From IMG/VR virus record IMGVR_UViG_3300006641_000205, positions 1 to 22,175 of that record: 22,175 nt of DNA. One strand, written 5' to 3'. The stretch comes from a virus. The position numbers were made by a program, and so were the translations under genes. Shown piece after piece: positions 709-17,680 of the stretch; the first letter of the stretch is position 1; the number at the start of each line of letters is the position of its first letter. The notes under the pieces are model-generated. The model was not told where the DNA came from. It ran no database searches and saw only the letters and a list, made by a program, of their open reading frames with translations.

Positions 709-729
709 AAACATATAAGACAATCTCTT

Positions 730-1401: not shown

Positions 1402-1636
1402 AGACGAAAATTTTATGAAAAATGAGTGGGGAACCTCGTATTTGTCAAGTGAATATGGTTGGGAAAGTAAAATTGAAAAACAAAAGATGCTTCGTGAGAT
1501 CGCAAATGATGAACTAACTCCCAAAAAGCATGATTTTTTTCATCAAAACGAAATTCACTCACAAATTCGTAATGATGAAGACTATGATGATTGGGAATAT
1601 GGAACTGAACCCCTTTACGAATCAAAAAATCCCTAA
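1382..1636 (+). CDS. Hypothetical charged protein (84 aa)
   Basis: I do not recognise this protein. It overlaps the previous gene by 20 bases and starts 7 bases after a good AGGAG. The product is highly charged: the N-terminal half has alternating K and E (IEKQKMLREIANDEL) that could form a helix, and the C-terminal third is acidic and aromatic (NDEDYDDWEYGTEPLYESK). It has no signal peptide, membrane segment or cysteine. It ends just before the candidate late promoter for gp25, so it is probably the last gene of the upstream transcript. It could be a small virion or regulatory protein; nothing decides this. Confidence 0.66.
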   Translation: MTKQVDKDENFMKNEWGTSYLSSEYGWESKIEKQKMLREIANDELTPKKHDFFHQNEIHSQIRNDEDYDDWEYGTEPLYESKNP

Positions 1637-1642
1637 TAAATA
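1635..1642 (+). promoter_or_regulatory. Candidate late promoter upstream of gp25 (AATAAATA)
   Basis: AATAAATA overlaps the stop of the 84-aa gene and sits 21-28 bases before the gp25 ATG. The T4 late promoter is a single -10-like box, TATAAATA, read by the phage late sigma factor with a sliding clamp; cyanophage late promoters are described as NATAAATA. The match is exact to that form, and it lies in one of the few gaps between genes, at the boundary between small unknown genes and baseplate genes. Confidence 0.6.
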
Positions 1643-1662
1643 AGGTAGAATCATAATATTCA

Positions 1663-2064
1663 ATGCCCGTACAGCGCGTTAGTAAGTCATTTAAAGACAT
1701 TAGCATGTCTTTTCAGGTTAATCCTTTAACCTATGACTTAATCGCTCTTACAAATGAAAATGCAATCGCTCGCTCTTTACGTAATCTTGTACTTACTAAC
1801 AGAGGTGATCGATTTTTTGATAATAATCTAGGGTCAAGAGTCAACTCTTTACTTTTTGAATCACTTGACGACATTACTGCCTCATCTGTAAGAGATGAAA
1901 TTGAAAATACTATCAATAATTATGAACCAAGAGTGGAGTTAATATCAGTTGACGCTACGCCAGATTATGATAATGGTGAACTTAATATTACAATTAGATA
2001 CTATATCGTGGGAATTGACGCACAACCACAACAGTTATCATTTGCATTACAGCCGACACGATAA
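1663..2064 (+). CDS. 25: Baseplate wedge subunit gp25 (GPW/gp25 family)
   Basis: The product is 133 residues, against 132 for T4 gp25. Family landmarks are present in order: AIARSLRNLVLTNRGDRFF (about residues 34-52), corresponding to the T4 stretch that ends R-G-S-R-P-F-D; an N-L-G-S-R-V turn; an amphipathic helix; and YEPRVEL at residues 87-93. This contains the E-P-R motif shared by T4 gp25 and the TssE protein of type VI secretion. gp25 binds the gp6/gp7 core and seeds sheath assembly at the inner baseplate. Its TAA shares an A with the ATG of gp6, so the two are coupled, as expected for partners made together. The candidate late promoter at 1635-1642 is the likely transcription signal. 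A weak AAGG lies far upstream of the start. Identification is secure. Confidence 0.95.
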   Translation: MPVQRVSKSFKDISMSFQVNPLTYDLIALTNENAIARSLRNLVLTNRGDRFFDNNLGSRVNSLLFESLDDITASSVRDEIENTINNYEPRVELISVDATPDYDNGELNITIRYYIVGIDAQPQQLSFALQPTR

Positions 2065-4025
2065 TGCCATTAGTTAATTTTACGGATTTAGATTTCGATC
2101 AAATCAAAACATCAATTAAGGATTATCTCAGATCCAACTCAAATTTTACTGATTACGACTTTGAGGGATCTAATTTATCCACAATTATTGATGTGCTTGC
2201 ATATAATACGTATATAACTTCATACAATGCCAATATGGTATCAAATGAAGTTTTCATTGATAGTGCAACTCTGAGAGAAAATGTGGTTTCTCTTGCACGA
2301 AACATAGGATATGTACCAAAATCAAGAAAATCATCTAGAGCAAATGTATCTTTCTTTGTAGATACTTCTGGTTCTGCCTATACGATTAAACCAGAGACTC
2401 TAACACTTAATAAAGGCATCGTTTGCTCAACACTTGCCTTTGGAAATCAAAGTTACACCTTTTCAATTCTAGACGATATAACTGTTCCTGTTGTAGATAA
2501 TGTCGCATCATTTGATAATATTGATGTTTATGAAGGCACTTACATTACTGCAAACTTTACTGTTGATTCATTCAACCCAGATCAGCGATTTATTCTACCA
2601 AACTCCCAAATTGATACTTCTTCAATAAGAGTAATTGTAAAACCAAATACTTTTTCTGATATTAGCAGAAAGTATAGGCAAGCAGATAGTTTATTTAATA
2701 TAACTCCAGAATCTCCAATATTTTTTGCACAAGAAATTGAAGACGAAAGATATGAGTTGATTTTTGGTGATGGAGTATTTGGAACAAAGTTAGAGGCACC
2801 AAATTATATTCAAGTATCATATCTTGTCTCAAGTGGAGAATTAGCGAACGGAATTTCTCAGTTCAATTTTAGCGGAAAAATTACTTCCCCAAGAGAAACA
2901 TTTGCTATTACTTCTGGAATATCATTAATTACAACAAACCAAACCTCTTTTTCTGGAAAAGACATTGAAGGAATAGATTCTATCAAAAAATATGCATCTA
3001 GAATCTATGCATCTCAGAATAGAGCAGTTACTTCTAGAGATTATGAGTCAATAATTCCTAGAATTTATCCAGAAACTGAATCAATCTCAGTATTCGGCGG
3101 AGAAGAGTTAACTCCCCCTCAATTTGGAAAAGTTTTTATAAGCATAAAACCAACAAATGGAACGTACTTATCAAATTTAATTAAGGATAATATAAAAACT
3201 GAAATTAAAAAATACTCTGTAGCAGGAATTATTCCAGAAATTATAGATTTAAAATATCTCTATATTGAACCAACAATTAACGCATATTATAATACAAACC
3301 TAGTATCTTCAGCAAATTCAATTACATCAATTGTTTCTACTAATGTTGAAAGATATGCAAACTCAACAGAACTGAATAAGTTTGGTGCAAGATTTAAATA
3401 TAGCAAATTTTTAAAAGTGATTGATGATAGTAGTGATGCAATGACTTCTAACATTACTACTATTGTTATGAGAAGGGATCTGAGAGTTGCGTTAAATAGT
3501 TTTGCTGAATATGAAATTTGTTTTGGAAATAGATTCCATATTAAAAATGAAAAAGTTCTTAATGTAGAATACTTTGGATTAAATACGAGTGGAATCACTG
3601 AAAACAGTTTTAATATAAAGTCTTCTGGATTTAATGTGAGTGGTATTGTTGGTACAGTTTATCTCTCAGATATACCCAACACGGACAAAAAAACAGGAAC
3701 AATCTTTTTGTTTAGATTAAATTCTCCAACACAACCAGAAATTGTTAGAAAATCTGTTGGAACTATAGATTATATTAAAGGAGAGGTTAAACTATCTCCA
3801 ATTAATATTACAAATACTTCAATTAATAGGGGATTTCCGCTAATTGAAATTTCAGTTTCACCATATTCAAATGATGTAATTGGTCTTCAAGATTTATATT
3901 TACAATTGGATATAACTAAAACAGTTATAAATTCAAAACCAGATCAAATTTCATCGGGATACGATACATCGGGGACTAATTACATAGTTTCTTCCAGTTA
4001 TTCAAACGGACTTTTAGTAAGATAA
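2064..4025 (+). CDS. 6: Baseplate wedge subunit gp6 (baseplate J-like)
   Basis: The product is 653 residues, close to the 660 of T4 gp6. The N-terminus (VNFTDLDFDQIKTSIKDYL) and the following YDFEGSNLSTIIDVLAYNTY are typical of phage gp6/J-like wedge proteins. The central baseplate-J region contains YELIFGDGVFGTKL around residues 229-242 with a nearby YLVSSGELANG. Around residue 326 comes SRDYESIIPRIYPETESISV followed by FGGEE...PPQFGKVFISIKP, a strong gp6 signature. The C-terminal ~200 residues are more variable and beta-rich. In T4, two gp6 copies clamp one gp7 to form each wedge core, and gp6 forms the continuous inner ring. The start overlaps the gp25 stop by one base and there is no Shine-Dalgarno. 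One base separates its stop from the giant gene. Identification is secure. Confidence 0.94.
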   Translation: MPLVNFTDLDFDQIKTSIKDYLRSNSNFTDYDFEGSNLSTIIDVLAYNTYITSYNANMVSNEVFIDSATLRENVVSLARNIGYVPKSRKSSRANVSFFVDTSGSAYTIKPETLTLNKGIVCSTLAFGNQSYTFSILDDITVPVVDNVASFDNIDVYEGTYITANFTVDSFNPDQRFILPNSQIDTSSIRVIVKPNTFSDISRKYRQADSLFNITPESPIFFAQEIEDERYELIFGDGVFGTKLEAPNYIQVSYLVSSGELANGISQFNFSGKITSPRETFAITSGISLITTNQTSFSGKDIEGIDSIKKYASRIYASQNRAVTSRDYESIIPRIYPETESISVFGGEELTPPQFGKVFISIKPTNGTYLSNLIKDNIKTEIKKYSVAGIIPEIIDLKYLYIEPTINAYYNTNLVSSANSITSIVSTNVERYANSTELNKFGARFKYSKFLKVIDDSSDAMTSNITTIVMRRDLRVALNSFAEYEICFGNRFHIKNEKVLNVEYFGLNTSGITENSFNIKSSGFNVSGIVGTVYLSDIPNTDKKTGTIFLFRLNSPTQPEIVRKSVGTIDYIKGEVKLSPINITNTSINRGFPLIEISVSPYSNDVIGLQDLYLQLDITKTVINSKPDQISSGYDTSGTNYIVSSSYSNGLLVR

Positions 4026-4026
4026 A

Positions 4027-5010
4027 ATGATATCAACAGACCTCAAGAGAGTACAAATCCAGGACATAGTTGCAAATCAACTACCCTCCTTTGTGAGAGA
4101 AGATTTTCCTTTGATCACAGAGTTTTTAAAACAGTACTATATTTCACAAGAATATCCAGGAGCTTCTGTTGATCTCATACAAAATATAGATCAATATCTA
4201 AAATTAGAAACCTTAACTGATAATACAGATTCTACTAAATTATCTTCTGCAGTATCATTTAGTGATACTACAATTAATGTTGGATTTGATTTAGCTAATA
4301 ACATTTTAGGAACATATGGATTTCCTGAAAAGTATGGATTGATTAAAATTGATAATGAGATAATATTATATACAAGTAAAACAAACAACAGTTTTATTGG
4401 ATGTGTAAGAGGATTTAGTGGTGTAACTTCATATACGAAAGTAGACGCTACTGATGGGTTGACTTTCTCTACTTCAGAGATTGCAGAGCACTCAGCTAGC
4501 ACTAGTGTTATAAATTTAAGCAATTTACTCTTAAAAGAGTTCTTAACAAAGATCAAATATCAATTTACACCAGGTTTTGAGAATAGAAATCTTGACGCTG
4601 ATGTAAATGAAAGACTTTTTATCTCAAGAGCAAAAGATTTCTATCAAACAAAAGGAACTGACGAGTCATTCAAAATTCTTTTTGGTGCATTATATGGTGA
4701 AAAAGTAGATGTTGTTAAACCAAGAAACTATCTTTTCAGACCATCTGATGCACAATATAGAATCACCAAAGATATTGTTGTAGGTTCGCTATCAGGGAAT
4801 CCCCTGGAATTATTGAATCAAACTCTCTTCCAAGATGAGTATTCAAATTATGACATACAAAAAGCATATGCTTCAGTTACTGATGTAGAAAAACTTTACT
4901 ACGGTGGAAAAGAATATTACAAATTAAGTGTTGATTTTGATTATTCAAAAGATATTACCTTTGATGGTAGCGTATTTGGAGATTTTTCTGTTCATCCAAA
5001 AACAAGAGTA
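4027..5010 (+). other. gp7-like wedge core domain at the N-terminus of the giant protein
   Basis: Residues 1-~328. In T4 gp7 a helical segment is followed by R-S-Y-D-F-Y-S-T-K-G-I-E-A-S-Y-K-F-L-F-K and then a beta segment. Here the order is the same: LLLKEFLTKIKYQFTPGFE, then SRAKDFYQTKGTDESFKILF at 201-220, then GEKVDVVKPRNYLFRPSDAQ. The T4 sequence is from memory, so percent identity cannot be stated. This part probably holds the gp6 clamp contact. Confidence 0.65.
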
Positions 5011-8000
5011 ATAACAAAAGTTTCTGCAGGATCTTCTGTAATTGATGTAGACTCTACTGTAGGATTTCCCCACTCTGGAGAATTAGTAGTAAATTACTCA
5101 GCAACAAATACAGGTATAGTCTCATACACTTCAAAATCAACAAATCAGTTTTTTGGAGTGTCTAATGTAACTTCAGATATTGCATCTGCAACAGATATTA
5201 GGTTAAATGCATATGCATACGGATATGTTGGTGTAGGAACTGCATCTAAGGTTGAAGTTAGAATTGGTTCTGTGCTTTCAAATCTAGAAGTACAAGATCA
5301 GACATATTATTTTTCCAAAAATGATACTGCAACTATCAAATCCCTAGGAATCAAGACTTCTGGACCTAGGGTAGATAGTTGGATTTACAACCTTGCAACC
5401 AAATATGATATTAATTCCATAGCAGTAACTGATATTTCAAGTTTTACTTATAGAGCAACAACTTTTGTAAGAAATAATTTTAAGGTTGGGGACAATTTAT
5501 TCATTATAGATTCTTTTGGAGTTTCCAAAGAATGTTTTGTAAGCGATATTATTAATGACTTCACCTTCTCTATAAAAGGTCAAGGTTTCATTGATACAAA
5601 TAGAGTTGGATACAAGATAGAGAGAAAAATCTTAAAACCACAGGTCAGTTCTTTACTGACAAATTATTCGTATATTTCAAAATATACATCAAATGTTCAG
5701 AATACTTATGTAAAGTTTAATCAGGATGTTTTAGTTGCTGCATCATCTATTCCAAACTATTATAATCAACCATTAAGTTTTTATGATAGAAAGATAACTC
5801 TCAGTGGTTCTTACAGCGGAGAAGTTTTTACAGTTTCAAATGTTTCAGATCATGGATATTATACAGGAGATGCTGTTTACTATTCCCCATTTGTAAAAAC
5901 AGAAATTATAGATGGTAGCACTGTTACAACGACTAGCAAGTTTAGTAACATGCAGGAAGGCATTTATTATGTTAAAAGATTGGTAAATGCAAATCAATTT
6001 AAATTAGCAAGTAGCCAAGCAAATTTATATAACAATAAGTTTATATCAGTTTCCGGTATAGTAACAGCAAATACATTACAGTATGCTAATTTTTATAACA
6101 AAGAACTTCAGCATCAAAATCTATTAAGAGAAATTAAATCACCCAGTGATGAAAGTGGCAACTACACAACCGATCCAGGTAAAACCGGAATTTTGGTGAA
6201 TGGAGTTGAAATTTTAAATTACAAGTCTGAGGATACAATTTATTATGGTTCTTTAAATGATATTATTGTATCTGCAAAGGGTAGTAATTATGATATCATA
6301 AATCCACCCATCCTAGCAATAACCGATAGAGTTGGCACTGGTGCCACTGGAGTCTGTGTCGTAAAAGGATCTTTACAAAAAATAAATCTTATTGATTCTG
6401 GATTTGATTATATCGCAAAACCAATAGTTACTATAACAGGTGGTAATGGATATGGTGCAAAAGCAGATGTAAATACCACCTTTATAGACCATTCAGTTTC
6501 TTTCAATGCAACATCAGAATCTGCTTTCGTAAATCTGTCTGCAGATACGATTGGATTTTCTACATATCACAAATTTAGAAATGCCGAAAAAGTAGTTTAT
6601 AAAACAGATAATCAAACTGCAGTCTCTGGAATTGTTACCGATGCAGTTTATTTTGTCAAAACAATAGATGCATTTACAATCAAACTCTACAATACAGAGT
6701 CTGATGCAATCTCAGGATTGAATACAGTTTCGCTGACAAATTATGGTTCAGGTGTTCATAGAATACAATCTTTTGATAAAAAACAAATTATATCCAATAT
6801 TATTGTTGTCGATCCCGGGACAAATTATGAAAACAAAAAAAGAACAGTAAGTTCCTCAGGAATTAATACGGCATCTAATCAAATTACTATTAGAAATCAC
6901 CAGTACAACTCAGGAGAAGTTGTTACATACTCTTATAACGAAACCCCAATATCTGGATTAAGTTCTTTAACTTCATATATTGTTACCAAAGTTGATGAAG
7001 ATAATTTCAGACTATCAAGTGTTGGTGTGGGATCTATTTCAAAACTTTTCTACTTTAATAATAAACAATATGTCAATTTAGATTCTGTTGGATCAGGAAG
7101 TCACATTTTTAATTATGAACCAATTTCTGTCTCTATAGTTGGTGAGATAGGTGTATCAACTTTTGCAGGTCAAGATTTTTCTGCAAAAATTCAACCAATA
7201 TTCAGAGGATCAATTGAGTCTGTTCAAGTAACAAATCCCGGTGTTGGATATGGAGTTACTGATATATTAAACTATAATAGACAACCAAGTTTCACCTTAT
7301 CAAGTGGATCTTCTGCAGAACTTTTACCAATTATCAATAATGGAAGAATAGTAGAAGTTCTTGTTACTAATGAGGGAAGAGATTATAATTCTCCACCAGA
7401 ACTGATTATTTCTGGTTCTGGTAAGTATGGAAAACTGGTTCCTGTTATAAGTGATGGCAAAATTAAATCAGTAAAAATAGAAAGTCCTGGAATAGGATAT
7501 GAAGAAAAAACTAGAATAACAATTGCACCAAGTGGTAGTGGGGCTTCTTTTAATGCAGATATTCAAAAATGGACAGTTAATTTATTTGAAAAATATCTAA
7601 ACATTATTTCAGACGATGATGGAATTTTGACGAAATCATCAAATGAAGAATTTGGAGTGCAATATTCTCATTTATATGTACCAAGAAAATTAAGGGAGTC
7701 GGTATACGGAAAAGATCAAGACAACCAAGTAAAATATGGAGTTTTTGATTTACAAAAAGTAAATGGAGAAGAAGTATCATCACAATACCATTCACCTATA
7801 ATTGGATGGGCATATGATGGTAATCCAATTTATGGTCCATATGGATTTTCCACAAAAACTGGTGGAAGTGTTCGCACAATGAAGTCTGGTTATGCTGCGA
7901 CAGTAAAACCAAACAGACCTCCATATGCACAGGGATTTTTTGTAGAGGATTTTGAATTTAATAATTCGGGAGATCTTGATGAGCACAATGGTCGTTTTTG

Positions 8001-11000
8001 CGTAACACCAGATTTTCCAAATGGAGTTTATGCTTATTTTGCAACCATCAATCCAGACAGATCAGAAACTTCATCTGCCTTTAGTAAATACAGAATTCCA
8101 GTTTTCCCATACCTGATTGGCAATTCATTTAAGTCTAAACCAAATTCATTTAATTATGATTCGCAATCAAATCAAATCTCATATGATTTAAATTCATCAT
8201 CTTGGTTTAGAAATACAACGCCATATAATTTAACCGAAAGTGGTTCATATTATGATTTCTTATTCCAGCCAAATAAAATAAAACCACAAACAATAAACAT
8301 TAATGAGTCTTTAAGAGGAAGTATTGATAGTGTTGGAATTATAACAGGTGGTTTGGGATATAAGGTTGGTGATACAATTCTTTTTGACGATCAACAATAT
8401 ACCCAAAAAACAAAGGCAAAAGTAACTAGAATATTAGGTAAACCTGTAACTAATATTAGTGTTGCTACTACGACAATATCCCAGTTAGAAATTGTACCTT
8501 TTGATTCTAGTGGATCTTATGTTGCATTTGCAACTACTCCACATGGACTTTTAAATAATGATCTAGTTTCATTGTCTGGATTTAATACATCAATCAGTCA
8601 TCTACAATCAAACTTTAATATTGGCGTAAACTCTGAAAAATTGATTCTTAACACTGGAGTAGGAACAGATGGAGTTACTGGCGTTGTAACTTATTTTAAT
8701 GTATCTGGAAATATCAAAGGTGATAATTTATTCTCCATAAGAGAAAATGATATTATTTCTGTTGGGTCTGAAAAAGTAAAAGTACTTAATGTAGATGTAT
8801 TAAATTCAAGAATTAGAGTCTTAAGATCCCAACAAAATACAGTATCTTCAGCACATACTGCCTCCACATTATTGAATGAGGATACTAGGAAATTTACATT
8901 TACTGCATTACCAGAGAATGAGGTAACATTTGAATTAAATAAAGAAATTTATTTTAATCCTAAAGAGTCCATTGCTTTGGGATCATTGAGTGGAGTTGGA
9001 ATAGGAACTACCCTATCCTCCTCAAATCCTGGTGCAGGTATATCTCAAATTTTTGTACCAACACGATCAATTTATCTCCCAAATCATAATTTGAAAACAG
9101 GAGATGTTCTTTCTTATCATAATAATGGAGGAAGTTCAATATCAGTTTCTACAAATGGATCTGTTGGCTATGCTCTTTCCGATCTTTCAATAGTTTATGT
9201 AGGAAAAATATCCAATGATTTAATTGGAATATCAACCTATAAAATTGGAATTGGATCCACAGGAACATTTGTTGGTATTGCTAGCACAACTCTATCAACG
9301 GGATTATTATACTTTACTGGAATAGGTACAGATGTTTATCATAGTTTCAAAACAGTAAAACAAAATATTGTAACTGCAGAAGCAAATAAAAATGTAGTAA
9401 CTGTTGCTACTGCATCAACACATGGATTGTCAATAAATGATTCTGTTAATATTGAAGTAAATCCAGGAATAACAACTACAGTAGTTGTAAAATATGACGA
9501 TTACAATAGAAGAATAGTATTTAATCCAAAATCATTTACTTCTGGTGATGTTGATATTTTAAACAATACAATATCAATCAATGATCATGGATTTAATAGT
9601 GGAGACAAGGTAATCTACACATCATCTTCTTCCTCTGGAGGTCTTTCAAACGAAGGAATATACTACATATTCAGATTCAACAAAGATAAAGTTAAATTGT
9701 GTTTGAATAGATACCAATCTCTTCAGTTTAATCCTGAGGTTGTTGATATATCATCAGCATCTTTAGGAACTCTATCATCAATTAATCCCCAGATTAATGC
9801 ATATAAAAATAATACAATTAAATTTGATTTGTCAGATTCCTCTTTGTCAAATTTAAGTGGATCTACTTTCTATTCTGCATTTGATTTCAATCTTTATTCA
9901 GATTCTCAGTTTACAAATGTTTTTGATTCAACACAAAAATCAAATTCATTTGAGGTATTTAAATCTGGTCAAATAGGAATAACGACGAATGCATCATTAA
10001 CTCTGAGAGTAACAAATTCTTTACCTGAAGTATTATATTACAAGTTTTCTCCAATTAAATCGCAATTCGTATCTTCAGTCAAAAAAGAAATATACATTGA
10101 TGATGAAGTTTTATATTCAAACCAAATTAAAGTAACTAATAGTTTATTTAATGGTTCATTTAATGTAACTGGAATTGGAACAACTTCAACCTTTACATAC
10201 AATTTACAACAATTACCAGAAAAATCAAACTACACTTCCGATAATTCTACACTTAAATATACAACAAATTCTTCATCTGCAAATGGAGGAATTTCTGATA
10301 TTTCCATATCATACTCAGGTAAAGGATATCAAAATATAGTTGGAATATCTACAATAAATTCATTAAATGGTTCAGGTGCAATACTAGAATCATCAAGCAA
10401 ATCTATAGGTAGAATAGTTTCAAATCAAATAGAGGATATTGGATTTGATTTCCCAACCGACAAAACTTTAAGACCTGTCTGCAACTTACCTGAAATTTTA
10501 TTAATGCAGCCACTTTCATCATTTAATGAAATTGGCATCACTTCTGCAGGCAAAAACTACACAATAGCACCTAAATTGGTTGTTGTTGATGGATACACTG
10601 GAAAAGTGGTTGATGATGTTGACCTGTCATACAATATTGGCGACACAAAGGTAAAAATACTGAAAAACACTTTTGGTATTTACAATACAACACCAAAAAT
10701 TATCCCCACAAATAATCAAAATGGCATAGGAATCAATAATATTTCATATAATAGCGTTACTAAAGAAGTTAGTGTTGGATTAAATACTGGATTCAGTGAT
10801 TTCTTCCCATTCTCTGTTGGCGATAAAGTTCTTATCGAAAATGTCAGTGTTGGTGTTGCAACAACTGGATTTGGATACAATTCTGCAAATTACAACTATT
10901 CCCTTTTCACCTTAACTAAAGTTCCTGCTGGAGCGAGTGCTCTTGGTGGAAGTGTTGGTGTTGTTACATATAGTTTGGATGGATTACTGAAAGAGGGAAC

Positions 11001-14000
11001 AATACCTGGTAATTATGATCCTTTAAGATCCTCTGGTAGAATAATTGCAGAAAAAGATTTCCCTGTCTTTGATATTAAACTGAAAAAGAATGATTTTATC
11101 TTAGGAGAAACTGTTTCCTCCAATAATAATACTGGAAAAGTTGAAAGTTGGAATAATGAAATTGAGCTTTTAAAAGTTTCTACAACAAAAGACTTTAATG
11201 TTGGTGATATTTTAGTTGGGCAGACATCAAGAACTCAAGGTGCCATCAAATCAAAAATAGATTTTAATGCCGAAATTAAAACAGGACCAACTTCCATCGT
11301 TAAAAAAGGATGGAATAGAGAAACAGGATTTTTAAATTACAATACTGAGAGAATTTCTGACAATAATTATTACCAAAACTTCTCATACTCATTGAAATCA
11401 AAAGTTCCTTTTGAAACTTGGAATGATTCTGTAAGTTCCCTCAATCATACATCTGGATTCTTAAAGTTTAGTGACTTGATCATTGAATCGCAAGATTCTA
11501 ATTTTAAAGGAGTTAACTCCAATTACAGGGGTGGTGATATTGATATTGTTGTTGATATATATGATCAAGTAGATACAAACTGCTATTCTAACTTTGATTT
11601 AGTTACAGAGAATTCGTTAAATGCTGGCGGATCAACAATTTCTGATGAAATTTACTTTAATTCAAGAGTTCTGACTGATTATTTTGAATCATTTGGAAAT
11701 AGAGTTTTGATTATTGATGATATCAGCACTCAGTTTAATAGTGATCCTAGACCAACAAGATATTCAATTGTAGATACTTTTGATGTAAATCATAAGTATA
11801 AAAAATATTTTACATACGTAGCAGATAAAAGATTTACCGGAGAAAGACAGTTTCTAATTGTTTCTCTGCTTCAAAATGGATCTGAGGGATATTTGAATCA
11901 ATATGGTAGAGTTGAAAGTCAATTAGATCTTGGTAGTTTTGACTTTAGTATTTCTGGAACAGAAGGACAACTTTTATTCTATCCAACAAAATATTCAGTA
12001 AATAACTACAACTTAAGTTTTGCATCTTTTGATCTTGATAGTTCAATCTCTGGAATAGGTTCCACTAGTCTCGGTGACGTTGTAAGTATTAGATCATCAA
12101 AAGCATCTGCACCAACATCTACTGCAACTACTATCGTTTCCATTGCTTCTACATATAGATCATCTAAAGTTCTTGTTGAAATTGAAGGAAATAATGGGCA
12201 GTTCGAGTCTAATGAAATAAGTCTAATTCACAACGGGACTAACGTAGAATTTTTGGATTATGGTCAGTTGACAGATCATTCATCGGATGCATTATCCAGT
12301 TCAGGTTTAGGAACTTACAATGCTTATATTTCTGGCGGAAATGTAAAACTTGATTTTACTCCAAATGTAGGAATTGCGGCAACAATTAATGCAGTAACAG
12401 TATCTATAGCAAGCACCTTATCTACGGGAATTGGAACGCAATATCTTGGATTTGACTCCGAAAATATTGCTTTTGTTGATTCTTCATATACATCCATTGC
12501 ATCTACCTCTTCACCAACAGAAAATATTGTTGCAAGATATATTAATGTTATCCCAAGTGATCATACTTGTGCATATTATTTGATAAGTGTAGAGGATACA
12601 ACAAACAACCAATATGAAATGTCAGAAGTCATTGTTTTAAACGATGGTACAAATGCTTATATTACTGAATATGCAAATCTATCAACAAATTCTGGATTAG
12701 GAACGGTTGGCGCTGCAGTATCTTCTTCATATACAAATCTATACTATACCCCAATTCCAAACATTAATGCACAAGTTCGTGTCTTCCAATTAAGTCTACA
12801 ATTGGTTGATTTGGAAAGTTCATCTTCATCAGAGATAGATTTAAATAATTCATCTATTAGTGCTGGATATGGTTTCTATCAGGGAACAGAAACTGATGTA
12901 AGAAGAGCATTTAACCTCACATATAAGCAAAAACCAATTTTCTTAAGAAATTTTGATGGAGGAAACTCTTTAGTTGTAGATACAACTGAAGATACCATTT
13001 TATTACCAGAGCACTTCTTTATAACCGGTGAAGAAGTTGTATATTCTTATGATGTTAATAATGCAAGTCCAATAGGAATCGCCTCAACATCGTTTGCGGG
13101 TATAGGCACAACAAGCATTTTACCATCATCCGTTTATATTATTAAAATCAATGATCAAAAAATAAAACTTGCAAGATCTGCAGAAGATGCACTCAAAACA
13201 GTACCGAACGCCCTGAATATTACAAGTGTTGGAGTAGGTACTTATCATACATTTACCTCTAAGAGACAAAACTCTAAGTGTATTATTGCACTCGATAATT
13301 ATTTCCAATCACCTATCGTTGCAACATCAGTTACAACTGGTCTGACTACTCATATTGGTCTTGTTGATGATATTATTAAGTTTTCTGGAATAACATCATT
13401 CTTTAGTGGAGATCTAATCCAAATTAATAATGAGATTATGAAGATCAATACTGTTGGACTTGGTAGTACTAACTTTATACTTGTAGATCGCCAATGGATG
13501 GGAACTGGATTATCAACGCACTCGGAATATTCTATAGTAACTAAAGTTCAAGGAAACTACAATATTGTTGATAGCACTATCAACTTTATTACAGCACCTC
13601 AAGGACCTATTCCCATAGGAAGTTCTACAAATGCGCCTGACGAAAGAGATTGGTCAGGAATAACTACATTCTCAAAATTCCAGGGTAGAACTTTCTTAAG
13701 ATCTGGAACAGAAAATGGTACTTCAGAAACTTACACAACAAATTATATCTTTGATGATATTTCTGAATATTTCAATGCAACGTCTAAAACTTTTACTCTC
13801 CAAGTTAACAAGCAAAATGTAACTGGTTTCTCAACAGATAACGCAGTGATTCTTATCAATGGAATTTTCCAAGGTCCAACTGGACAACTTCCAGTATCAC
13901 AAGATTATTCTCTAAGTGAAGGATCTGGAATTAGTAGCATTACTTTTGCTGGAGCTGCAACATCTGTTTCATATGATCCAAATAACGCAAGTATACCAAT

Positions 14001-16101
14001 CGGTGGAATAATTGTTTCTGTTGGATCTACTGAAGGATTTGGATATCAACCTCTTGTTTCTGCAGGAGGAACTGCAGTTGTTTCAATAGCAGGAACAATA
14101 TCATCAATTAGTATTGGTAATAGTGGATCTGGATATAGAGCAGGAATTCAAACAACAGTAAGAGTTGGTGTCACAACTGCAACAACTGGTATTCCTAGCA
14201 TTCAATTTATCGGTACTGCTGCGATTAGTGGCGGACACATTGTAAGTGTTGCAGTTACAAATCCTGGAGCAGGATACACCTCATCAAACCCACCTCTTGT
14301 CGTTTTTGATTCTCCATTATCTTACTCAGACATTCCTCTGATTTATAGTTCTTCATCACCATCTGGATTTGGTACTCAAGCAACTATTGATATTGTTGTT
14401 GGACAGGGATCTAGTGTGATAGATTTTGAAATTAAAAACTTTGGATATAATTATGGACAGCAACAAATATTGACTGTGGCAGCAGGTGGATTAGCAGGAA
14501 TACCTACAGATCCAACAAAACCATTTAGAGAATTCCAACTTACAATTGACAAAACAATATCTGATGAATTTGCTGGATGGCACCTTGGACAACTGGAAGT
14601 TCTGGATAAGATTGAAAATCAATTTGATGGAGTTAGAAAATCCTTCAATATTTCTTTAAATTCATCTCCCGTTACTATTAGATCTGCAAAAGGATCAAAT
14701 ATAGATGTTCAAGCAACACTACTGGTATTCTTGAATGATATCTTACAAGTTCCTGGAGAAGGATATACATTTACTGGAGGTAGTGTAGTAACTTTTGCAG
14801 AACCTCCAAAAGGAAACTCTCCAGACGGATCAATTATTGGAGACAAATGTAAGATTCTTTTCTACAAAGGAAGTGGTGATGTTGATGTAGTTTTCCGTGA
14901 TGTTTTAGAAACTGTTAAAGTTGGAGACAATTTAACAATTAAAGGACAGGAAGAAAGATTAGTCACAACAGTTGTTTCTTCTGATACAGTAGAAACGAAT
15001 CCATATAATGGTGAAGGAATTGATTCAAATCCAGCAAATCAAAGAACGGTTGAATGGTGCAAACAAACTGTAGATAAAGTTATTAACGGCCAGATCATAA
15101 GTAAGAGCAGAATTCTTAATGAAGCACTTATAAATCCAACAACGAATATAATTCAATCTGTTGGAGTTGGATCAACTATAGTATATGTTGATAGTCTCAA
15201 GACTTTCTTTGATGCAAAAAATGAAAATCAAACTACAACAAACAGGCAAAAAATTGTTCTATTCTCCCAAGACATCACAGTAGGAGCATCTGCTACTGCA
15301 GTTGTCTCTGCAGCTGGAACAATATCATCAATCATTATCAGCAATGGTGGAGTAGGATATTCTACTGCACCAATAGTAACTATTGGAAATCCAATTGGAT
15401 TTGGAACAACTATGAGATCATCTGCTTCATCAACAATATCGGTTGGTGGAACAGTTTCTTCGATAACAATAACTTCACCTGGACTTGGATATACAACGGA
15501 CAATCCACCACAAGTTCTTATTGAAGTTCCCGAAGTGATTTATGAAGTAAATACTTCACTATCTTATGAGGGTGATTTTGGTGTGATTGTGGGATTTTCA
15601 ACAGTTTCCGTTGGAGTTGCTTCTACAGGAATTGTATTTGATTTTTACATTCCACAAAATTCTTTCTTGAGGGATACTTCAATAGTTTCTGCAGCAACAA
15701 CAGTAAGTGGTATTCAAACTGGTTACTATTTTGTTGTTAATAACAGCAATATTGGCAATGGTGTAACTTCATTGTATCAAAACAATTCTGTTTTGGGAAT
15801 TGGAACTCAATTCTTAGATAATGTTTATGAGGTAGCATCTGTTTCCATAGCACAAACCTCCGCCCCTGGAATTGCATTAACATACGTGGCTAGAGTTACA
15901 ACTAATGTCTCAAATTATAATGGATTGGTAGGAACGGGTAATAGTTCATTCTTTGGAAACTTCTCTTGGGGTAGAATTGTATTAGGAAATAGAATTGATC
16001 CAAAAGCATTTAATGCATATACAACAAATGGATCAACTGGTGTTACAACATCTGCTATTTTGAATAGAGTAGCACCCCTAAAATACATCAATTATTCTTA
16101 A
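4027..16101 (+). CDS. Giant baseplate protein: gp7-like core plus long modular beta-repeat region (4024 aa)
   Basis: This uninterrupted 4024-codon gene sits between gp6 and gp8, the place of gene 7 in T4 (1032 aa). Residues 1-~330 hold a gp7-like core: a helical VANQLPSFVREDFPLITEFL...QYYISQEY segment, then KDFYQTKGTDESFKILFGAL at 203-222 and a VDVVKP strand, matching the order and motifs near the C-terminus of T4 gp7. A small beta module (~70-160) interrupts it. Further on come I-x-I-x-N-E modules, H-G-[FL]-x-x-G-D-x-V-x-Y modules, G-x-G-Y repeats (747-1175 and 3340-3836), a YHYH domain (~1215-1350), a conserved N-N-Y-Y-Q-N-F-S-Y-S-L segment (~2445) and a triplicated ~90-residue domain (2583-2928). 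There is no signal peptide or membrane segment. The likely role is a wedge subunit with an outward extension, possibly contacting the host. Arg codons are almost all AGA. One base separates it from gp6 and no Shine-Dalgarno is visible. Gene call certain; gp7 homology likely; function of the repeats unknown. Confidence 0.88.
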   Translation: MISTDLKRVQIQDIVANQLPSFVREDFPLITEFLKQYYISQEYPGASVDLIQNIDQYLKLETLTDNTDSTKLSSAVSFSDTTINVGFDLANNILGTYGFPEKYGLIKIDNEIILYTSKTNNSFIGCVRGFSGVTSYTKVDATDGLTFSTSEIAEHSASTSVINLSNLLLKEFLTKIKYQFTPGFENRNLDADVNERLFISRAKDFYQTKGTDESFKILFGALYGEKVDVVKPRNYLFRPSDAQYRITKDIVVGSLSGNPLELLNQTLFQDEYSNYDIQKAYASVTDVEKLYYGGKEYYKLSVDFDYSKDITFDGSVFGDFSVHPKTRVITKVSAGSSVIDVDSTVGFPHSGELVVNYSATNTGIVSYTSKSTNQFFGVSNVTSDIASATDIRLNAYAYGYVGVGTASKVEVRIGSVLSNLEVQDQTYYFSKNDTATIKSLGIKTSGPRVDSWIYNLATKYDINSIAVTDISSFTYRATTFVRNNFKVGDNLFIIDSFGVSKECFVSDIINDFTFSIKGQGFIDTNRVGYKIERKILKPQVSSLLTNYSYISKYTSNVQNTYVKFNQDVLVAASSIPNYYNQPLSFYDRKITLSGSYSGEVFTVSNVSDHGYYTGDAVYYSPFVKTEIIDGSTVTTTSKFSNMQEGIYYVKRLVNANQFKLASSQANLYNNKFISVSGIVTANTLQYANFYNKELQHQNLLREIKSPSDESGNYTTDPGKTGILVNGVEILNYKSEDTIYYGSLNDIIVSAKGSNYDIINPPILAITDRVGTGATGVCVVKGSLQKINLIDSGFDYIAKPIVTITGGNGYGAKADVNTTFIDHSVSFNATSESAFVNLSADTIGFSTYHKFRNAEKVVYKTDNQTAVSGIVTDAVYFVKTIDAFTIKLYNTESDAISGLNTVSLTNYGSGVHRIQSFDKKQIISNIIVVDPGTNYENKKRTVSSSGINTASNQITIRNHQYNSGEVVTYSYNETPISGLSSLTSYIVTKVDEDNFRLSSVGVGSISKLFYFNNKQYVNLDSVGSGSHIFNYEPISVSIVGEIGVSTFAGQDFSAKIQPIFRGSIESVQVTNPGVGYGVTDILNYNRQPSFTLSSGSSAELLPIINNGRIVEVLVTNEGRDYNSPPELIISGSGKYGKLVPVISDGKIKSVKIESPGIGYEEKTRITIAPSGSGASFNADIQKWTVNLFEKYLNIISDDDGILTKSSNEEFGVQYSHLYVPRKLRESVYGKDQDNQVKYGVFDLQKVNGEEVSSQYHSPIIGWAYDGNPIYGPYGFSTKTGGSVRTMKSGYAATVKPNRPPYAQGFFVEDFEFNNSGDLDEHNGRFCVTPDFPNGVYAYFATINPDRSETSSAFSKYRIPVFPYLIGNSFKSKPNSFNYDSQSNQISYDLNSSSWFRNTTPYNLTESGSYYDFLFQPNKIKPQTININESLRGSIDSVGIITGGLGYKVGDTILFDDQQYTQKTKAKVTRILGKPVTNISVATTTISQLEIVPFDSSGSYVAFATTPHGLLNNDLVSLSGFNTSISHLQSNFNIGVNSEKLILNTGVGTDGVTGVVTYFNVSGNIKGDNLFSIRENDIISVGSEKVKVLNVDVLNSRIRVLRSQQNTVSSAHTASTLLNEDTRKFTFTALPENEVTFELNKEIYFNPKESIALGSLSGVGIGTTLSSSNPGAGISQIFVPTRSIYLPNHNLKTGDVLSYHNNGGSSISVSTNGSVGYALSDLSIVYVGKISNDLIGISTYKIGIGSTGTFVGIASTTLSTGLLYFTGIGTDVYHSFKTVKQNIVTAEANKNVVTVATASTHGLSINDSVNIEVNPGITTTVVVKYDDYNRRIVFNPKSFTSGDVDILNNTISINDHGFNSGDKVIYTSSSSSGGLSNEGIYYIFRFNKDKVKLCLNRYQSLQFNPEVVDISSASLGTLSSINPQINAYKNNTIKFDLSDSSLSNLSGSTFYSAFDFNLYSDSQFTNVFDSTQKSNSFEVFKSGQIGITTNASLTLRVTNSLPEVLYYKFSPIKSQFVSSVKKEIYIDDEVLYSNQIKVTNSLFNGSFNVTGIGTTSTFTYNLQQLPEKSNYTSDNSTLKYTTNSSSANGGISDISISYSGKGYQNIVGISTINSLNGSGAILESSSKSIGRIVSNQIEDIGFDFPTDKTLRPVCNLPEILLMQPLSSFNEIGITSAGKNYTIAPKLVVVDGYTGKVVDDVDLSYNIGDTKVKILKNTFGIYNTTPKIIPTNNQNGIGINNISYNSVTKEVSVGLNTGFSDFFPFSVGDKVLIENVSVGVATTGFGYNSANYNYSLFTLTKVPAGASALGGSVGVVTYSLDGLLKEGTIPGNYDPLRSSGRIIAEKDFPVFDIKLKKNDFILGETVSSNNNTGKVESWNNEIELLKVSTTKDFNVGDILVGQTSRTQGAIKSKIDFNAEIKTGPTSIVKKGWNRETGFLNYNTERISDNNYYQNFSYSLKSKVPFETWNDSVSSLNHTSGFLKFSDLIIESQDSNFKGVNSNYRGGDIDIVVDIYDQVDTNCYSNFDLVTENSLNAGGSTISDEIYFNSRVLTDYFESFGNRVLIIDDISTQFNSDPRPTRYSIVDTFDVNHKYKKYFTYVADKRFTGERQFLIVSLLQNGSEGYLNQYGRVESQLDLGSFDFSISGTEGQLLFYPTKYSVNNYNLSFASFDLDSSISGIGSTSLGDVVSIRSSKASAPTSTATTIVSIASTYRSSKVLVEIEGNNGQFESNEISLIHNGTNVEFLDYGQLTDHSSDALSSSGLGTYNAYISGGNVKLDFTPNVGIAATINAVTVSIASTLSTGIGTQYLGFDSENIAFVDSSYTSIASTSSPTENIVARYINVIPSDHTCAYYLISVEDTTNNQYEMSEVIVLNDGTNAYITEYANLSTNSGLGTVGAAVSSSYTNLYYTPIPNINAQVRVFQLSLQLVDLESSSSSEIDLNNSSISAGYGFYQGTETDVRRAFNLTYKQKPIFLRNFDGGNSLVVDTTEDTILLPEHFFITGEEVVYSYDVNNASPIGIASTSFAGIGTTSILPSSVYIIKINDQKIKLARSAEDALKTVPNALNITSVGVGTYHTFTSKRQNSKCIIALDNYFQSPIVATSVTTGLTTHIGLVDDIIKFSGITSFFSGDLIQINNEIMKINTVGLGSTNFILVDRQWMGTGLSTHSEYSIVTKVQGNYNIVDSTINFITAPQGPIPIGSSTNAPDERDWSGITTFSKFQGRTFLRSGTENGTSETYTTNYIFDDISEYFNATSKTFTLQVNKQNVTGFSTDNAVILINGIFQGPTGQLPVSQDYSLSEGSGISSITFAGAATSVSYDPNNASIPIGGIIVSVGSTEGFGYQPLVSAGGTAVVSIAGTISSISIGNSGSGYRAGIQTTVRVGVTTATTGIPSIQFIGTAAISGGHIVSVAVTNPGAGYTSSNPPLVVFDSPLSYSDIPLIYSSSSPSGFGTQATIDIVVGQGSSVIDFEIKNFGYNYGQQQILTVAAGGLAGIPTDPTKPFREFQLTIDKTISDEFAGWHLGQLEVLDKIENQFDGVRKSFNISLNSSPVTIRSAKGSNIDVQATLLVFLNDILQVPGEGYTFTGGSVVTFAEPPKGNSPDGSIIGDKCKILFYKGSGDVDVVFRDVLETVKVGDNLTIKGQEERLVTTVVSSDTVETNPYNGEGIDSNPANQRTVEWCKQTVDKVINGQIISKSRILNEALINPTTNIIQSVGVGSTIVYVDSLKTFFDAKNENQTTTNRQKIVLFSQDITVGASATAVVSAAGTISSIIISNGGVGYSTAPIVTIGNPIGFGTTMRSSASSTISVGGTVSSITITSPGLGYTTDNPPQVLIEVPEVIYEVNTSLSYEGDFGVIVGFSTVSVGVASTGIVFDFYIPQNSFLRDTSIVSAATTVSGIQTGYYFVVNNSNIGNGVTSLYQNNSVLGIGTQFLDNVYEVASVSIAQTSAPGIALTYVARVTTNVSNYNGLVGTGNSSFFGNFSWGRIVLGNRIDPKAFNAYTTNGSTGVTTSAILNRVAPLKYINYS
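4230..4500 (+). repeat. I-x-I-x-N-E beta module, copy 1 (inserted in the gp7-like core)
   Basis: Residues ~69-158 contain YGFPEKYGLIKIDNEIILY followed by FIGCVRGFSG, a small repeated unit of the form [GF]-x-x-x-G-x-[IL]-x-I-[DN]-N-E-x-[IM]-x-x followed by a V-x-R-x-x-x-G turn. Recognisable relatives occur at 5017-5211 (FPHSGELVVNYSATNTGIV), 8731-8870 (ENDIISVGSEKVKVLNV) and 13369-13530 (FFSGDLIQINNEIMKINTV then VDRQWMGTG). Confidence 0.5.
5790..7140 (+). repeat. Cluster of H-x-[FY]-x-x-G-[DE]-x-V-x-Y modules, copies 1-3
   Basis: Three modules of roughly 80-110 residues share a histidine turn, G-[DE]-x-V-x-Y strand, a G-[IL]-x-x-x-x-x-Y-[FIY]-V strand and an F-[KR]-L strand: DHGYYTGDAVYY...GIYYVKR...QFKLASS (His codon near 5854), YHKFRNAEKVVYKT...AVYFVKT...TIKLYNT (near 6568) and NHQYNSGEVVTYSY...TSYIVTK...NFRLSS (near 6898). 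I recall the same layout from bacterial surface adhesin repeats and other cyanophage structural proteins. Confidence 0.55.
6265..7560 (+). repeat. G-x-G-Y / x-P-x-[VI]-x-I beta repeats, N-terminal cluster
   Basis: At least six degenerate units follow the pattern hydrophobic strand, [NSD]-x-G-x-x-Y turn, P-x-hydrophobic strand: VSAKGSNYDIINPPILAI, LIDSGFDYIAKPIVTI, VVDPGTNYENKKRTV, VTNPGVGYGVTDIL, VTNEGRDYNSPPELII and IESPGIGYEEKTRITI. They flank two of the histidine-turn modules. Such units probably stack as beta ladders. Further units lie at 8332-8394 and 10300-10605. Confidence 0.6.
7669..8100 (+). other. YHYH-type domain within the giant protein
   Basis: Residues ~1215-1358. QYHSPIIGWAYDGNPIYGPY starts at residue 1253 and DLDEHNGRFCVTPDFPNGVY at residue 1316, followed by AYFAT. 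These two blocks are the hallmarks of the YHYH family (named for its conserved Tyr/His residues), known from bacterial exported proteins and phage structural proteins; its function is not settled. The conserved His (1255, 1320), Asp and Tyr residues could form a metal or ligand site, but that is inference. Confidence 0.8.
8520..9812 (+). repeat. Histidine-turn modules, middle cluster (four copies)
   Basis: Four further H-[GN]-[LF]-x-x-[NG]-D-x-[VL] units occur: TPHGLLNNDLVSLSG, LPNHNLKTGDVLSYH, STHGLSINDSVNIEV and NDHGFNSGDKVIYTS; the last continues with GIYYIFRFNKDKVKLCLN as in the earlier cluster. Short G-I-G-[ST]-T turns are abundant between them. The units are too diverged for DNA-level alignment by eye. 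Confidence 0.5.
11308..11490 (+). other. Conserved N-Y-Y-Q-N-F-S-Y-S-L segment in the giant protein
   Basis: Residues ~2428-2488. GWNRETGFLNYNTERISDNN is followed at once by YYQNFSYSLKSKVPFETW and SLNHTSGFLKFSD. I recall this string of motifs from other large marine phage virion proteins, where it separates repeat regions. It is less repetitive than its surroundings, so it may be a folded junction. Function unknown. Confidence 0.45.
11773..12810 (+). repeat. Tandemly triplicated ~90-residue domain
   Basis: Three consecutive units share strand order and motif. Unit 1 (11773-12042) has VSLLQNGSEGYLNQYGRV...LGSFDFSISGTEGQLLFYPT. Unit 2 (12160-12417) has ISLIHNGTNVEFLDYGQL...LGTYNAYISGGNVKLDFTPN. 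Unit 3 (12532-12810) has VIVLNDGTNAYITEYANL...LGTVGAAVSSSYTNLYYTPI. The common pattern is a hydrophobic strand, [NG]-[DG]-[ST], x-x-Y, L-G, S-G/S, then L-x-[FY]-x-P. Each unit ends in another alternating beta strand. Linkers of about 40 residues rich in A-S-T separate them. The units look like beta-sandwich domains from duplication within the gene; DNA identity is low, so duplication is old. Confidence 0.7.
12972..13260 (+). repeat. Histidine-turn module, C-terminal copy
   Basis: LPEHFFITGEEVVYSYDVNN leads into SVYIIKINDQKIKLARSAED and SVGVGTYHTF. This is the best-preserved copy of the module: His turn, G-E-x-V-x-Y strand, Y-x-I-K strand, K-L-A strand and a final G-V-G-T-Y-H-T-F close. Confidence 0.55.
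14035..15535 (+). repeat. G-x-G-Y beta repeats, C-terminal cluster, with a 66-base direct repeat
   Basis: Units include SIGNSGSGYRAGIQ, AVTNPGAGYTSSNPPLVVF, EIKNFGYNYGQQQILTV, IISNGGVGYSTAPIVTI and TITSPGLGYTTDNPPQVLI. Bases 14071-14136 and 15295-15360 align without gaps at 52 of 66 positions by hand count, sharing ACTGCAGTTGT and GGAACAATATCATCAAT, which shows relatively recent duplication. A non-repetitive block between them holds TLLVFLNDILQVPGEGYTFT followed by AEPP, which I recall from other cyanophage structural proteins. Confidence 0.7.
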
Positions 16102-16126: not shown

Positions 16127-17680
16127 ATGTCAGCAATCATAACTGATCAACTTCGCATATTAAATGCAAAAGAATTTGTTGCTAGTGTAGCATCCACTAG
16201 TAATTCATACTATACTTTTGTAGGTCTTCCAAATCCGACCCAAGTGAGTTCAAGTTGGGATATTTCACCACCAGATCCGAGAGATAATTTTGACGAGGAA
16301 AATAATTATTGGGATACAATGATTGCCCTCAAAAAAGTTAATTCCGGTGATATTAAGCAGGTTGTTAGAAAAGTAACCTGGCAATCTGGAGTTACTTATG
16401 ATATGTATAGACATGATGTAAAAGCAGAAAATCCATCAAAACCTTCAAATGCGATCAGTTTATATGATGCAAATTATTACGTGGTTAATTCTGACTATAA
16501 AGTTTATGTTTGCCTTCAAAATGGAACTAATCCAGAAAACCCATCAGGAAGATCATCTTTAGACGAACCTACTTTTACAGATTTAGAACCCAGAGAAGCT
16601 GGAACTAGTGGAGATGGGTATATTTGGAAATATCTTTATACAATTAAACCAAGTGATATTATAAAATTTGATTCTACAAATTTTATGCCAGTTCCAACAA
16701 ATTGGGACACCAGCACCGATAACGCTGCAGTGAGAGATAATGCAGCAACTAGCGGGCAATTAAAAATTATTACTATCACAAATAGAGGTGTTGGACTAGG
16801 AACAGCAAATAGAACATACACAAGAGTTCCAATTAAGGGTGATGGAACCGGAGCAGAAGCAACAGTAGTAATAAACAATAATTCAAAGGTAGAGTCCGTA
16901 ACTATTTCCTCTGGTGGTTCTGGATATACATTTGGAACACTAGATCTTGCTTCCGGAAATGTTCCAACTGGATCAACAAATCCAGTATTTAATATCATTA
17001 TTCCACCTCAGGGTGGACACGGAGCTGACATTTATAGAGAACTTGGTGCTAGAAATGCTCTGATTTATTCAAGAATAGAAAACGACTCAGAGAATCCTGA
17101 TTTTATAACTGGAAATCAAATTGCCAGAATTGGAATCGTACAAAATCCAAAAGCATATAATTCTACTCAAAATTTAGATTTAGACAAAGCAAGTGCAGTT
17201 TACGCTCTGAAATTAACAGGAGCGGGTTATAGTTCTGCAACCTTTACTGCAGACTCTTTTATCATACAAACCATTGGAGTAGGATCCACTGCGGTTGGCA
17301 GAGTTATTTCATATGACCAAACAACAGGTGTTTTAAAGTATTGGCAAGATAGATCAACTGCGGGATTTAATACTAATGGAATCCAAAATACAAATCCTGT
17401 TTATGGATTCCAGTTAAACAGATTTACCTCATCACCAAACGGTGGAGGTTCTATAAGTATTCTTGGTGGATCTACAACTTTATCAATACAAACATCATTT
17501 ACAGGTATTTCTACCGTAATAAATAATAGAACATACTACCTAGGCCAATCTTTTAGTCAAGGTGTAGCACAACCAGAGGTTAAAAAATACTCTGGAAATA
17601 TTATTTACGTGGATAATAGACCTTCAATAACAAGATCAACCAGCCAAAAAGAAGATATCAAAGTCATTTTGCAGTTCTAA
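16127..17680 (+). CDS. 8: Baseplate wedge subunit gp8, enlarged with beta-repeat insertions (517 aa)
   Basis: T4 gp8 has 334 residues; this protein has 517. Shared landmarks are an N-terminal YYTFVGLPNP and W-D-x-M region, DANYYVVNSDYKVYVCLQNG, GDGYIWKYLYTI at 162-173 (T4 G-D-G-Y-V-W-E-Y-L-F), QIARIGIVQNP near 330-340 (T4 Q-I-S-I-I-T-N-P) and a C-terminal IIYVDNRPSI ending DIKVILQF (T4 Y-M-E-N-R-P-P-I ... I-N-I-L-F-T-F). The extra length lies in two places: about 205-295, with G-x-G-[LY] repeats such as SVTISSGGSGYTFG modified to the local sequence VESVTISSGGSGYTF, and about 362-488. In T4 a gp8 dimer joins the wedge core to gp10 and gp11 in the outer baseplate. A candidate late promoter precedes it. 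No Shine-Dalgarno is seen before the ATG. Confidence 0.88.
   Translation: MSAIITDQLRILNAKEFVASVASTSNSYYTFVGLPNPTQVSSSWDISPPDPRDNFDEENNYWDTMIALKKVNSGDIKQVVRKVTWQSGVTYDMYRHDVKAENPSKPSNAISLYDANYYVVNSDYKVYVCLQNGTNPENPSGRSSLDEPTFTDLEPREAGTSGDGYIWKYLYTIKPSDIIKFDSTNFMPVPTNWDTSTDNAAVRDNAATSGQLKIITITNRGVGLGTANRTYTRVPIKGDGTGAEATVVINNNSKVESVTISSGGSGYTFGTLDLASGNVPTGSTNPVFNIIIPPQGGHGADIYRELGARNALIYSRIENDSENPDFITGNQIARIGIVQNPKAYNSTQNLDLDKASAVYALKLTGAGYSSATFTADSFIIQTIGVGSTAVGRVISYDQTTGVLKYWQDRSTAGFNTNGIQNTNPVYGFQLNRFTSSPNGGGSISILGGSTTLSIQTSFTGISTVINNRTYYLGQSFSQGVAQPEVKKYSGNIIYVDNRPSITRSTSQKEDIKVILQF
17518..17525 (+). promoter_or_regulatory. Possible late promoter inside gp8 (AATAAATA), weak
   Basis: A third AATAAATA occurs within the gp8 coding region, 161 bases before the DUF4815-type gene. 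By base composition a few such 8-mers are expected by chance in this window, and this one is inside coding sequence, so it is only a possibility. Confidence 0.2.

Follow-up and report, generated by a model that had tools for sequence, protein, structure and literature searches.

A giant gp7 in a T4-related cyanophage: evidence for a small wedge frame carrying a long insertion and a C-terminal tail

What is the 4,024-residue protein encoded between gp6 and gp8 in the virus record IMGVR_UViG_3300006641_000205, and how is it built? The baseplate is the landing gear at the tip of a phage tail and gp7 is one of its core parts. Cyanomyoviruses are among the most abundant phages in the ocean, and a gene central to their infection machine, among the largest that they have, carries labels that vary from gp7 to 'hypothetical', 'structural' and head protein; one study reports gp7 as missing. 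We analysed the whole stretch of 22,175 bases, hereafter the window, which is complete as a record and is a fragment of a genome. The ORF at exactly 4027-16101 starts with ATG and encodes 4,024 residues with no internal stops. Its coordinates and the Pfam matches of its neighbours agree with the first-pass annotation, which had placed a protein of this length in the slot between gp6 and gp8. The order of the locus is gp25 - gp6 - ORF 4027-16101 - gp8 - VrlC/DUF4815.

1663-2064, plus strand: gp25, wedge/sheath initiator (PF04965, E=3.8e-15)
2064-4025, plus strand: gp6, wedge partner of gp7 (PF21379, E=6.8e-16; PF21387; PF21871)
4027-16101, plus strand: giant ORF assigned to gp7 (baseplate wedge protein, BW3 class), 4,024 aa, 436 kDa calculated, PHROG 2885
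16127-17680, plus strand: gp8 (PF09215, E=5.8e-13)
17687-22174, plus strand: VrlC/DUF4815 protein, incomplete, running off the end of the record (PF16075, E=7.4e-56)

The gene order around the giant ORF (gp6-[gp7]-gp8, with gp25 adjacent) is identical in relatives. PHROG 2885, 'baseplate wedge subunit', matched the protein with 3740.8 bits, residues 7-3388 aligning to profile positions 8-3359. Near the start of the window an ORF of 223 aa at 730-1401 matches PHROG 3577; S-SM2 and Bellamy annotate a gene of similar size there as 'ferredoxin', and a Pfam search of the ORF gave no ferredoxin match.

We found that the N-terminus of the ORF is homologous to T4 gp7 ~641-832. The following features make up this region.

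4027-4209, plus strand: N-terminal helical segment, aa 1-61, equivalent to T4 gp7 ~641-690 (Gp7_helical); hhalign is collinear from T4 641
4210-4506, plus strand: beta insert of ~100 aa within the helical core, aa 62-160, not in T4, Moby or phiN3 types
4639-4683, plus strand: core motif FYQTKGTDESFKILF, aa 205-219, of the form F-Y-x-T-K-G-x-x-x-S-[FY]-K-x-L-F
4717-5091, plus strand: domain-V-like region closing the N-terminal core, aa ~231-355, aligned to T4 gp7 domain V (766-861)

The first-pass annotation had recognised gp7 by the F-Y-x-T-K-G motif and had proposed a profile comparison with T4 gp7; motif and homology were both borne out, and the profiles match. In a single-sequence phmmer search of the whole PDB, T4 gp7 was the first match (E=1e-4, residues 191-231 against T4 720-760). 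A search of the PDB with the whole protein gave no match, presumably because the signal was swamped by length. An HMM built without any T4-like sequence retrieved T4 gp7 at E=3e-7. By hhalign, T4 gp7 was matched by the window clade at E=4.2e-9 and by the small homologues (phiN3 and Moby types) at E=1e-11, collinear over T4 641-832, and the profiles of the window clade and the small homologues matched each other at E=2.7e-25. The core-to-T4 profile score was 94.4, compared with a maximum of 31.0 among 150 column-shuffled controls. Because the phmmer match, the T4-blind HMM and the shuffled controls all point the same way, the motif at residues 205-219 is not a chance occurrence. PF23786 scored 17.4 bits on the window protein, under its 27-bit cut-off, and was over the cut-off for Moby and phiN3. 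As the exact motif expression FYxTKG was too strict (13 ORFs), the survey of homologues was based on HMMs.

An AF2 model of residues 1-600 had a mean pLDDT of 72 and was weak in the N-terminal helices, which were placed at residues 11-62 with low confidence. When this model was compared with 350,542 PDB chains by Foldseek, the top two matches were gp7-sized chains from T4 (5iv5) and Klebsiella phage KP1 (9f4a), at E of 1.1e-4 and 2.1e-4, with low TM-scores and low pLDDT in the core helices. These chains were taken to be gp7 from their length and entry, and phmmer independently names gp7 in both entries. Searching 12 complete relatives with the T4 gp7 profile, or else the family profile, we found one gp7 core per genome, always in the gp6-gp8 slot, and no second gp7, which the first-pass annotation had named as a refuting finding; for the window's own genome the search covers the 22-kb record only. 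The ORF is thus almost certainly gp7, a BW3-class wedge protein of a T4-related cyanophage (Kyanoviridae), and its helical segment (aa 1-61) would be expected to partner two gp6 chains in the wedge core bundle.

The first-pass annotation held that the core had been moved to the N-terminus and that the T4 domains ahead of it have no counterpart. The second statement stands, since the core of the ORF begins at residue ~8 and nothing precedes it that corresponds to the ~640 N-terminal residues of T4. The first does not: the core is N-terminal in every complete homologue checked outside T4 and KVP40, from 466 aa upward, with gp7/BW3 proteins of this kind found at sizes of 466-2,014 aa. It lies at residue 719 in T4 and 773 in KVP40, where there are ~640-700 extra N-terminal residues. 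The bundle-forming helices are N-terminal also in the published structures of XM1 gp17 (242 aa), Milano BW3 and A-1(L) gp32 (PMC10457771, PMC10811340, PMC10966104). Since the non-T4 homologues and these three proteins share this position, the N-terminal domains of T4 gp7 look like a lineage-specific addition, and the T4 arrangement, not that of the cyanophages, is the unusual gp7 layout. A tree of gp7 cores, built to see if the giants had a single origin, was gappy and its deep branches were poorly supported (0.68-0.84). Tail_P2_I matched 2 of 35 small gp7s, at best with 8.4e-6. The sheath domain Gp18_dom_I matched L091 (aa 261-308) and seven other small gp7s, with a best value of 2.2e-5; in Moby gp7 its match was under the cut-off and inside the spacer region.

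A second element of gp7 is conserved far downstream of the core.

11245-11490, plus strand: HPxGF domain, aa 2407-2488, the second conserved gp7 element, equivalent to T4 gp7 ~861-891

Our comparison set held about 130 complete relatives, and 126 of the 129 complete ORFs that bear a core also carry the HPxGF domain. In the remaining three the gene is interrupted. In L103 the domain is found in the following ORF; inspection of L012 and L024 showed that reading goes on in another frame, and their short ORFs were rejected as natural short forms for this reason. Most small homologues end with the HPxGF domain, in many of them 15-20 residues ahead of the C-terminus. In T4, residues 861-891, which contain IKSNLPSSRWKSDVIRFVHPVGFGF, align to it. 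This match was weak by plain HMM (E 0.01-0.9), and reached E=1.1e-5 by profile-profile hhalign against the T4 C-terminus, with a score of 36.1 compared with a maximum of 19.6 in 150 shuffles. The proposed T4 equivalence rests on this profile comparison, on the order of the elements and on a bridging protein, the 586-aa gp7 of Desulfovibrio phage 7757, in which the core is followed by 15 residues, the HPxGF domain and a 299-aa tail. Because of the occurrence in 126 of 129 ORFs and the T4 861-891 alignment, we conclude that the conserved gp7 frame is the core (aa 1-355 minus the ~100-aa insert) plus the HPxGF domain. In small relatives this frame makes up a compact protein, about 290-500 aa long.

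If the frame is small, where does the extra mass lie? The first-pass annotation had described ~3,700 residues of repeats attached after the core. We found that there is indeed extra mass containing repeats, but that it combines at least four small repeat families with non-repeat domains, and that it is split by the HPxGF domain. As shown by mapping of that domain and by relatives with split genes, it is not one block but an insertion and a separable tail.

5092-11244, plus strand: insertion of ~2,050 aa between the core and HPxGF, aa 356-2406, beta-rich, 223 kDa
11491-16098, plus strand: C-terminal tail following HPxGF, aa 2489-4024, 1,536 aa, 164 kDa

Between core and HPxGF the Desulfovibrio phage has a spacer of 15 aa, T4 and KVP40 one of 31-35, Moby types 127-182, phiN3 types ~250-1,230 and cyanophages 1,444-2,681; the window protein has 2,052 aa. 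Within the window clade the insertion varies little in length (2,046-2,104 aa in seven phages), at a core identity to the window of 41-55%. Over its first 3,700 residues the protein matches close relatives at a fairly even identity. Over these codons dN/dS was ~0.05-0.21 in ten segments, values that are rough since dS is near saturation; the last ~320 residues are without close-relative coverage. Judged from these sequence comparisons, purifying selection acts along the first 3,700 codons, the insertion included. The layout of the giant gp7 is very probably a small frame, an insertion of ~2,050 aa and a separable C-terminal tail.

The extra mass contains the following recognisable modules, to which a conserved domain of the tail is added.

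5839-6096, plus strand: repeat family R1 ('HGxxxGDxV' beta module), copy 1, aa 605-690 (segment-HMM self search, best E 8e-10)
6199-6480, plus strand: repeat family R2 (GxGY...PP.V.I module), copy 1, aa 725-818 (self search)
7774-8052, plus strand: YHYH domain, aa 1250-1342 (PF14240, E=6.6e-23), its order kept in the cyanophage giants examined
14494-14976, plus strand: conserved tail domain, aa ~3490-3650, present also in P-SSM2, S-CAM9, S-SSM7 (second ORF) and S-SZBM1

R1 has six copies, the others at residues ~845-912, 945-1024, 1672-1756, 1836-1915 and 2984-3079; the module is possibly FCCH-like, the resemblance being weak. R2 has about nine, the others at ~1039-1078, 1102-1181, 1426-1466, 2080-2145, 3343-3371, 3374-3431, 3751-3791 and 3797-3838, and one more R2 module lies in gp8 (aa ~206-269, 16742-16933; R2 HMM E=2.2e-5). 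The same region of gp8 also matches PHROG 460, 'head closure'. Self comparison further showed a repeat pair (2681-2789/2815-2928) and an 'FP' module at ~69-134, 321-380 and 3692-3727. An AF2 model of residues 580-1480 reached a pLDDT of ~90 up to residue ~1190, with nearly all of ~580-1190 in beta strand, and was of poor confidence beyond, the YHYH part included. Foldseek of this model against the PDB gave no confident receptor- or carbohydrate-binding fold. Two PDB matches at E<=0.001 were judged spurious (probability <=0.38, TM <=0.14), and a resemblance to UBA1/FCCH was not significant by Foldseek. Against viral models the matches were mainly cyanophage proteins and uncultured phage sequences.

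The tail is the more variable part, with 15 to 3,038 aa after HPxGF across homologues and 429 to 2,670 within the window clade. In the relative L056 its last ~1,080 aa (from residue ~2944) form a separate gene, with a stop at residue ~2935 and a restart after an AAGGAG ribosome site and ATG. In S-SSM7 gp7 is split near the same place, so that there and in L056 most of the window tail is a separate gene. A T4 gp9/10-like gene (PF07880, 4e-11) lies between the two parts in S-SSM7 (L086:29051-30073). The gene is unbroken in S-SM2, Bellamy, S-CAM9 and P-SSM2. S-RIM2/ACG-type cyanophages also match the tail domain at ~3490-3650. The beta insert of the core is itself larger by ~500 aa in S-SM1 (L088) and S-SZBM1 (L265), and therefore gp7 has at least three growth sites. 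In S-PM2-type phages a 175-176-aa ORF between gp7 and gp8 matches the beta insert with its C-terminus (L089:23169-23696; equivalents in L093 and L178-L199). S-SZBM1 has three extra ORFs, 205-207, between gp7 and gp8 (L265:9260-14232): one with a second YHYH domain, one with the gp9/10 N-terminal motif, and one with R2-like and beta-insert modules.

The position of the core was correlated with the other baseplate genes. Across 14 genomes, gp11 (PF08677) and full-length gp9/gp10 were confined to T4 and KVP40; in the 12 relatives with an N-terminal-core gp7, gp11 was absent and full-length gp9/gp10 were not found. Conversely, VrlC (PF16075) was present in all 12 of these and in neither T4 nor KVP40. 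This exclusion fits two kinds of outer baseplate. As T4 and KVP40 are both Straboviridae and share ancestry, the correlation may count only once, as a single evolutionary event. DUF4815/VrlC was also above the cut-off in a control genome, Synechococcus elongatus, perhaps in a prophage or tail-like particle.

How might such a protein work? In solved contractile baseplates one BW3/gp7 chain and two BW2/gp6 chains build the core bundle with their N-terminal helices, and the outer part of BW3 links the periphery and holds receptor-binding proteins (PMC10457771, PMC10811340). If the window protein follows the pattern of T4, XM1, Milano and A-1(L), its N-terminal helices would join two gp6 chains in a (gp6)2-gp7 wedge core bundle beside gp25. 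The extra mass enters at two main places, between domain V and HPxGF and in the C-terminal tail of ~1,540 aa. Because the insertion is anchored at either end in one small frame, it is expected to run out from the wedge and come back to it as a single arm, with the tail as another arm, of modular kind. The likeliest task of the arms would be to form the outer baseplate and to carry gp8, VrlC and fibres, a role that in T4 belongs to the gp7 N-terminal domains with gp10/gp11. We infer copy number, arm geometry, binding partners and function; over 20,000 extra residues per baseplate, the figure of the first-pass annotation, presupposes six copies, the number in T4. On this analogy we lean towards the arms as scaffold of the outer baseplate, and a gp7 with frame, insertion arm, tail arm and scaffold role is, as a whole, the best explanation and a probable one. 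Conceivable, and to us doubtful, is a wider picture in which the gp7 of VrlC-type T4-like phages, with its two covalent beta arms, replaces much of the T4 outer baseplate, a fixed clade-specific insertion loop sets baseplate size, the modular tail can become a gene by itself, and the arms were enlarged by accreting small modules that gp8 also has.

An extension acting mainly as a host-binding adhesin, whose arms carry receptor-binding modules (YHYH, beta modules) so that gp7 itself contacts the cyanobacterial surface, is unlikely, though a serious alternative. It has a precedent in Vp4 Gp119, a BW3 protein with inserted carbohydrate-binding modules that decorates host cells where a homologue without these modules does not (PMC11406892). 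YHYH domains have been grouped with host recognition (PMC7029224), and a coexistence study places S-PM2d081, the 3,048-aa S-PM2 homologue, among the ORFs with early mutations, most of which recurred across replicates (PMC9910659). However, we saw no variable tip along the first 3,700 residues, where identity and dN/dS are even, and residues 580-1480 yielded no confident carbohydrate-binding fold, with YHYH itself modelled poorly. A structural arm is favoured over a hypervariable adhesin because the length of the insertion is kept and purifying selection acts on it.

That the giant gp7 is translated whole and then cut in the particle, frame and tail becoming separate subunits as in the split-gene relatives, is quite improbable. 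The separate genes from about residue 2940 in L056 and nearby in S-SSM7, and the three extra ORFs of S-SZBM1, would suit such cleavage, but the four phages with an unbroken gene do not, and published proteomes give coverage, not intact mass. We give hardly any weight to the reading that the ORF is not gp7 and that VrlC took the place of a lost true gp7, a statement made for pelagimyophages and cyanomyophages (PMC7029224). The ORF does go under 'hypothetical' or 'virion structural protein' in some records, but the phmmer, T4-blind HMM, hhalign and shuffle results contradict a loss, the Foldseek matches, at low TM-scores, point the same way, and VrlC is a separate gene following gp8. For cyanophages we therefore reject replacement of gp7 by VrlC.

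Giant gp7 is already annotated in databases (PHROG 2885; P-SSM2, S-SM2). GenBank names the gene gp7, baseplate wedge initiator or baseplate wedge subunit in S-SM2 (4,156 aa), Bellamy (4,067), S-CAM9 (3,884) and P-SSM2 (5,195), and it is listed as hypothetical for S-PM2 and S-SM1. No description of the insertion architecture seems to have been published: in a literature search covering few subscription papers and preprints, we found no paper on the gp7 frame, the insertion or the size series. Homologues reach virions: published mass spectrometry detected S-SZBM1_208 (6,619 aa, 71 peptides; PMC9146016) and S-CREM2 ORF122 (1,937 aa, 91 peptides; PMC10665884), each of which has the core as well as the YHYH and HPxGF domains. 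The model of core, insertion, HPxGF and tail reconciles the conflicting labels, gives a size series for a single wedge protein from 466 to 6,619 aa, and yields specific predictions that a single cyanophage baseplate structure could test.

Among known systems the cyanophage giants (S-SM2, Bellamy, S-CAM9, P-SSM2, S-SZBM1_208) are closest. They share with the window protein the slot, the N-terminal core, the YHYH/HPxGF order and homology over much of the length, and nothing essential differs; tail length and gene splitting vary between phages. Moby (Stenotrophomonas phage, 503 aa), phiN3 (Sinorhizobium phage, 1,006 aa) and the Desulfovibrio phage 7757 protein likewise have an N-terminal core and then HPxGF, but their insertion is 15-670 aa compared with ~2,050. 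In Moby and phiN3 HPxGF is at or near the C-terminus, and a VrlC gene is present as in the window. T4 gp7 (1,032 aa; PDB 5IV5) and KVP40 gp7 keep the gp6-gp8 position and the order of core (T4 ~641-832) and HPxGF (861-891). Unlike the window protein, T4 gp7 has ~640 residues preceding its core, and its core and HPxGF lie only ~30 residues apart; gp10/gp11 are present and VrlC is absent. The minimal BW3 proteins (XM1 gp17 of 242 aa, Milano gp30, A-1(L) gp32, P2 gpI; A511 gp105, Vp4 Gp119) have no giant insertion and are linked to the window by sequence only via intermediates. In XM1, Milano and A-1(L) the BW3 N-terminal helices lie within a (BW2)2-BW3 bundle (PMC10457771, PMC10811340, PMC10966104), and the outer parts of the minimal proteins carry receptor-binding proteins (PMC10457771, PMC10811340, PMC10966104, PMC11406892).
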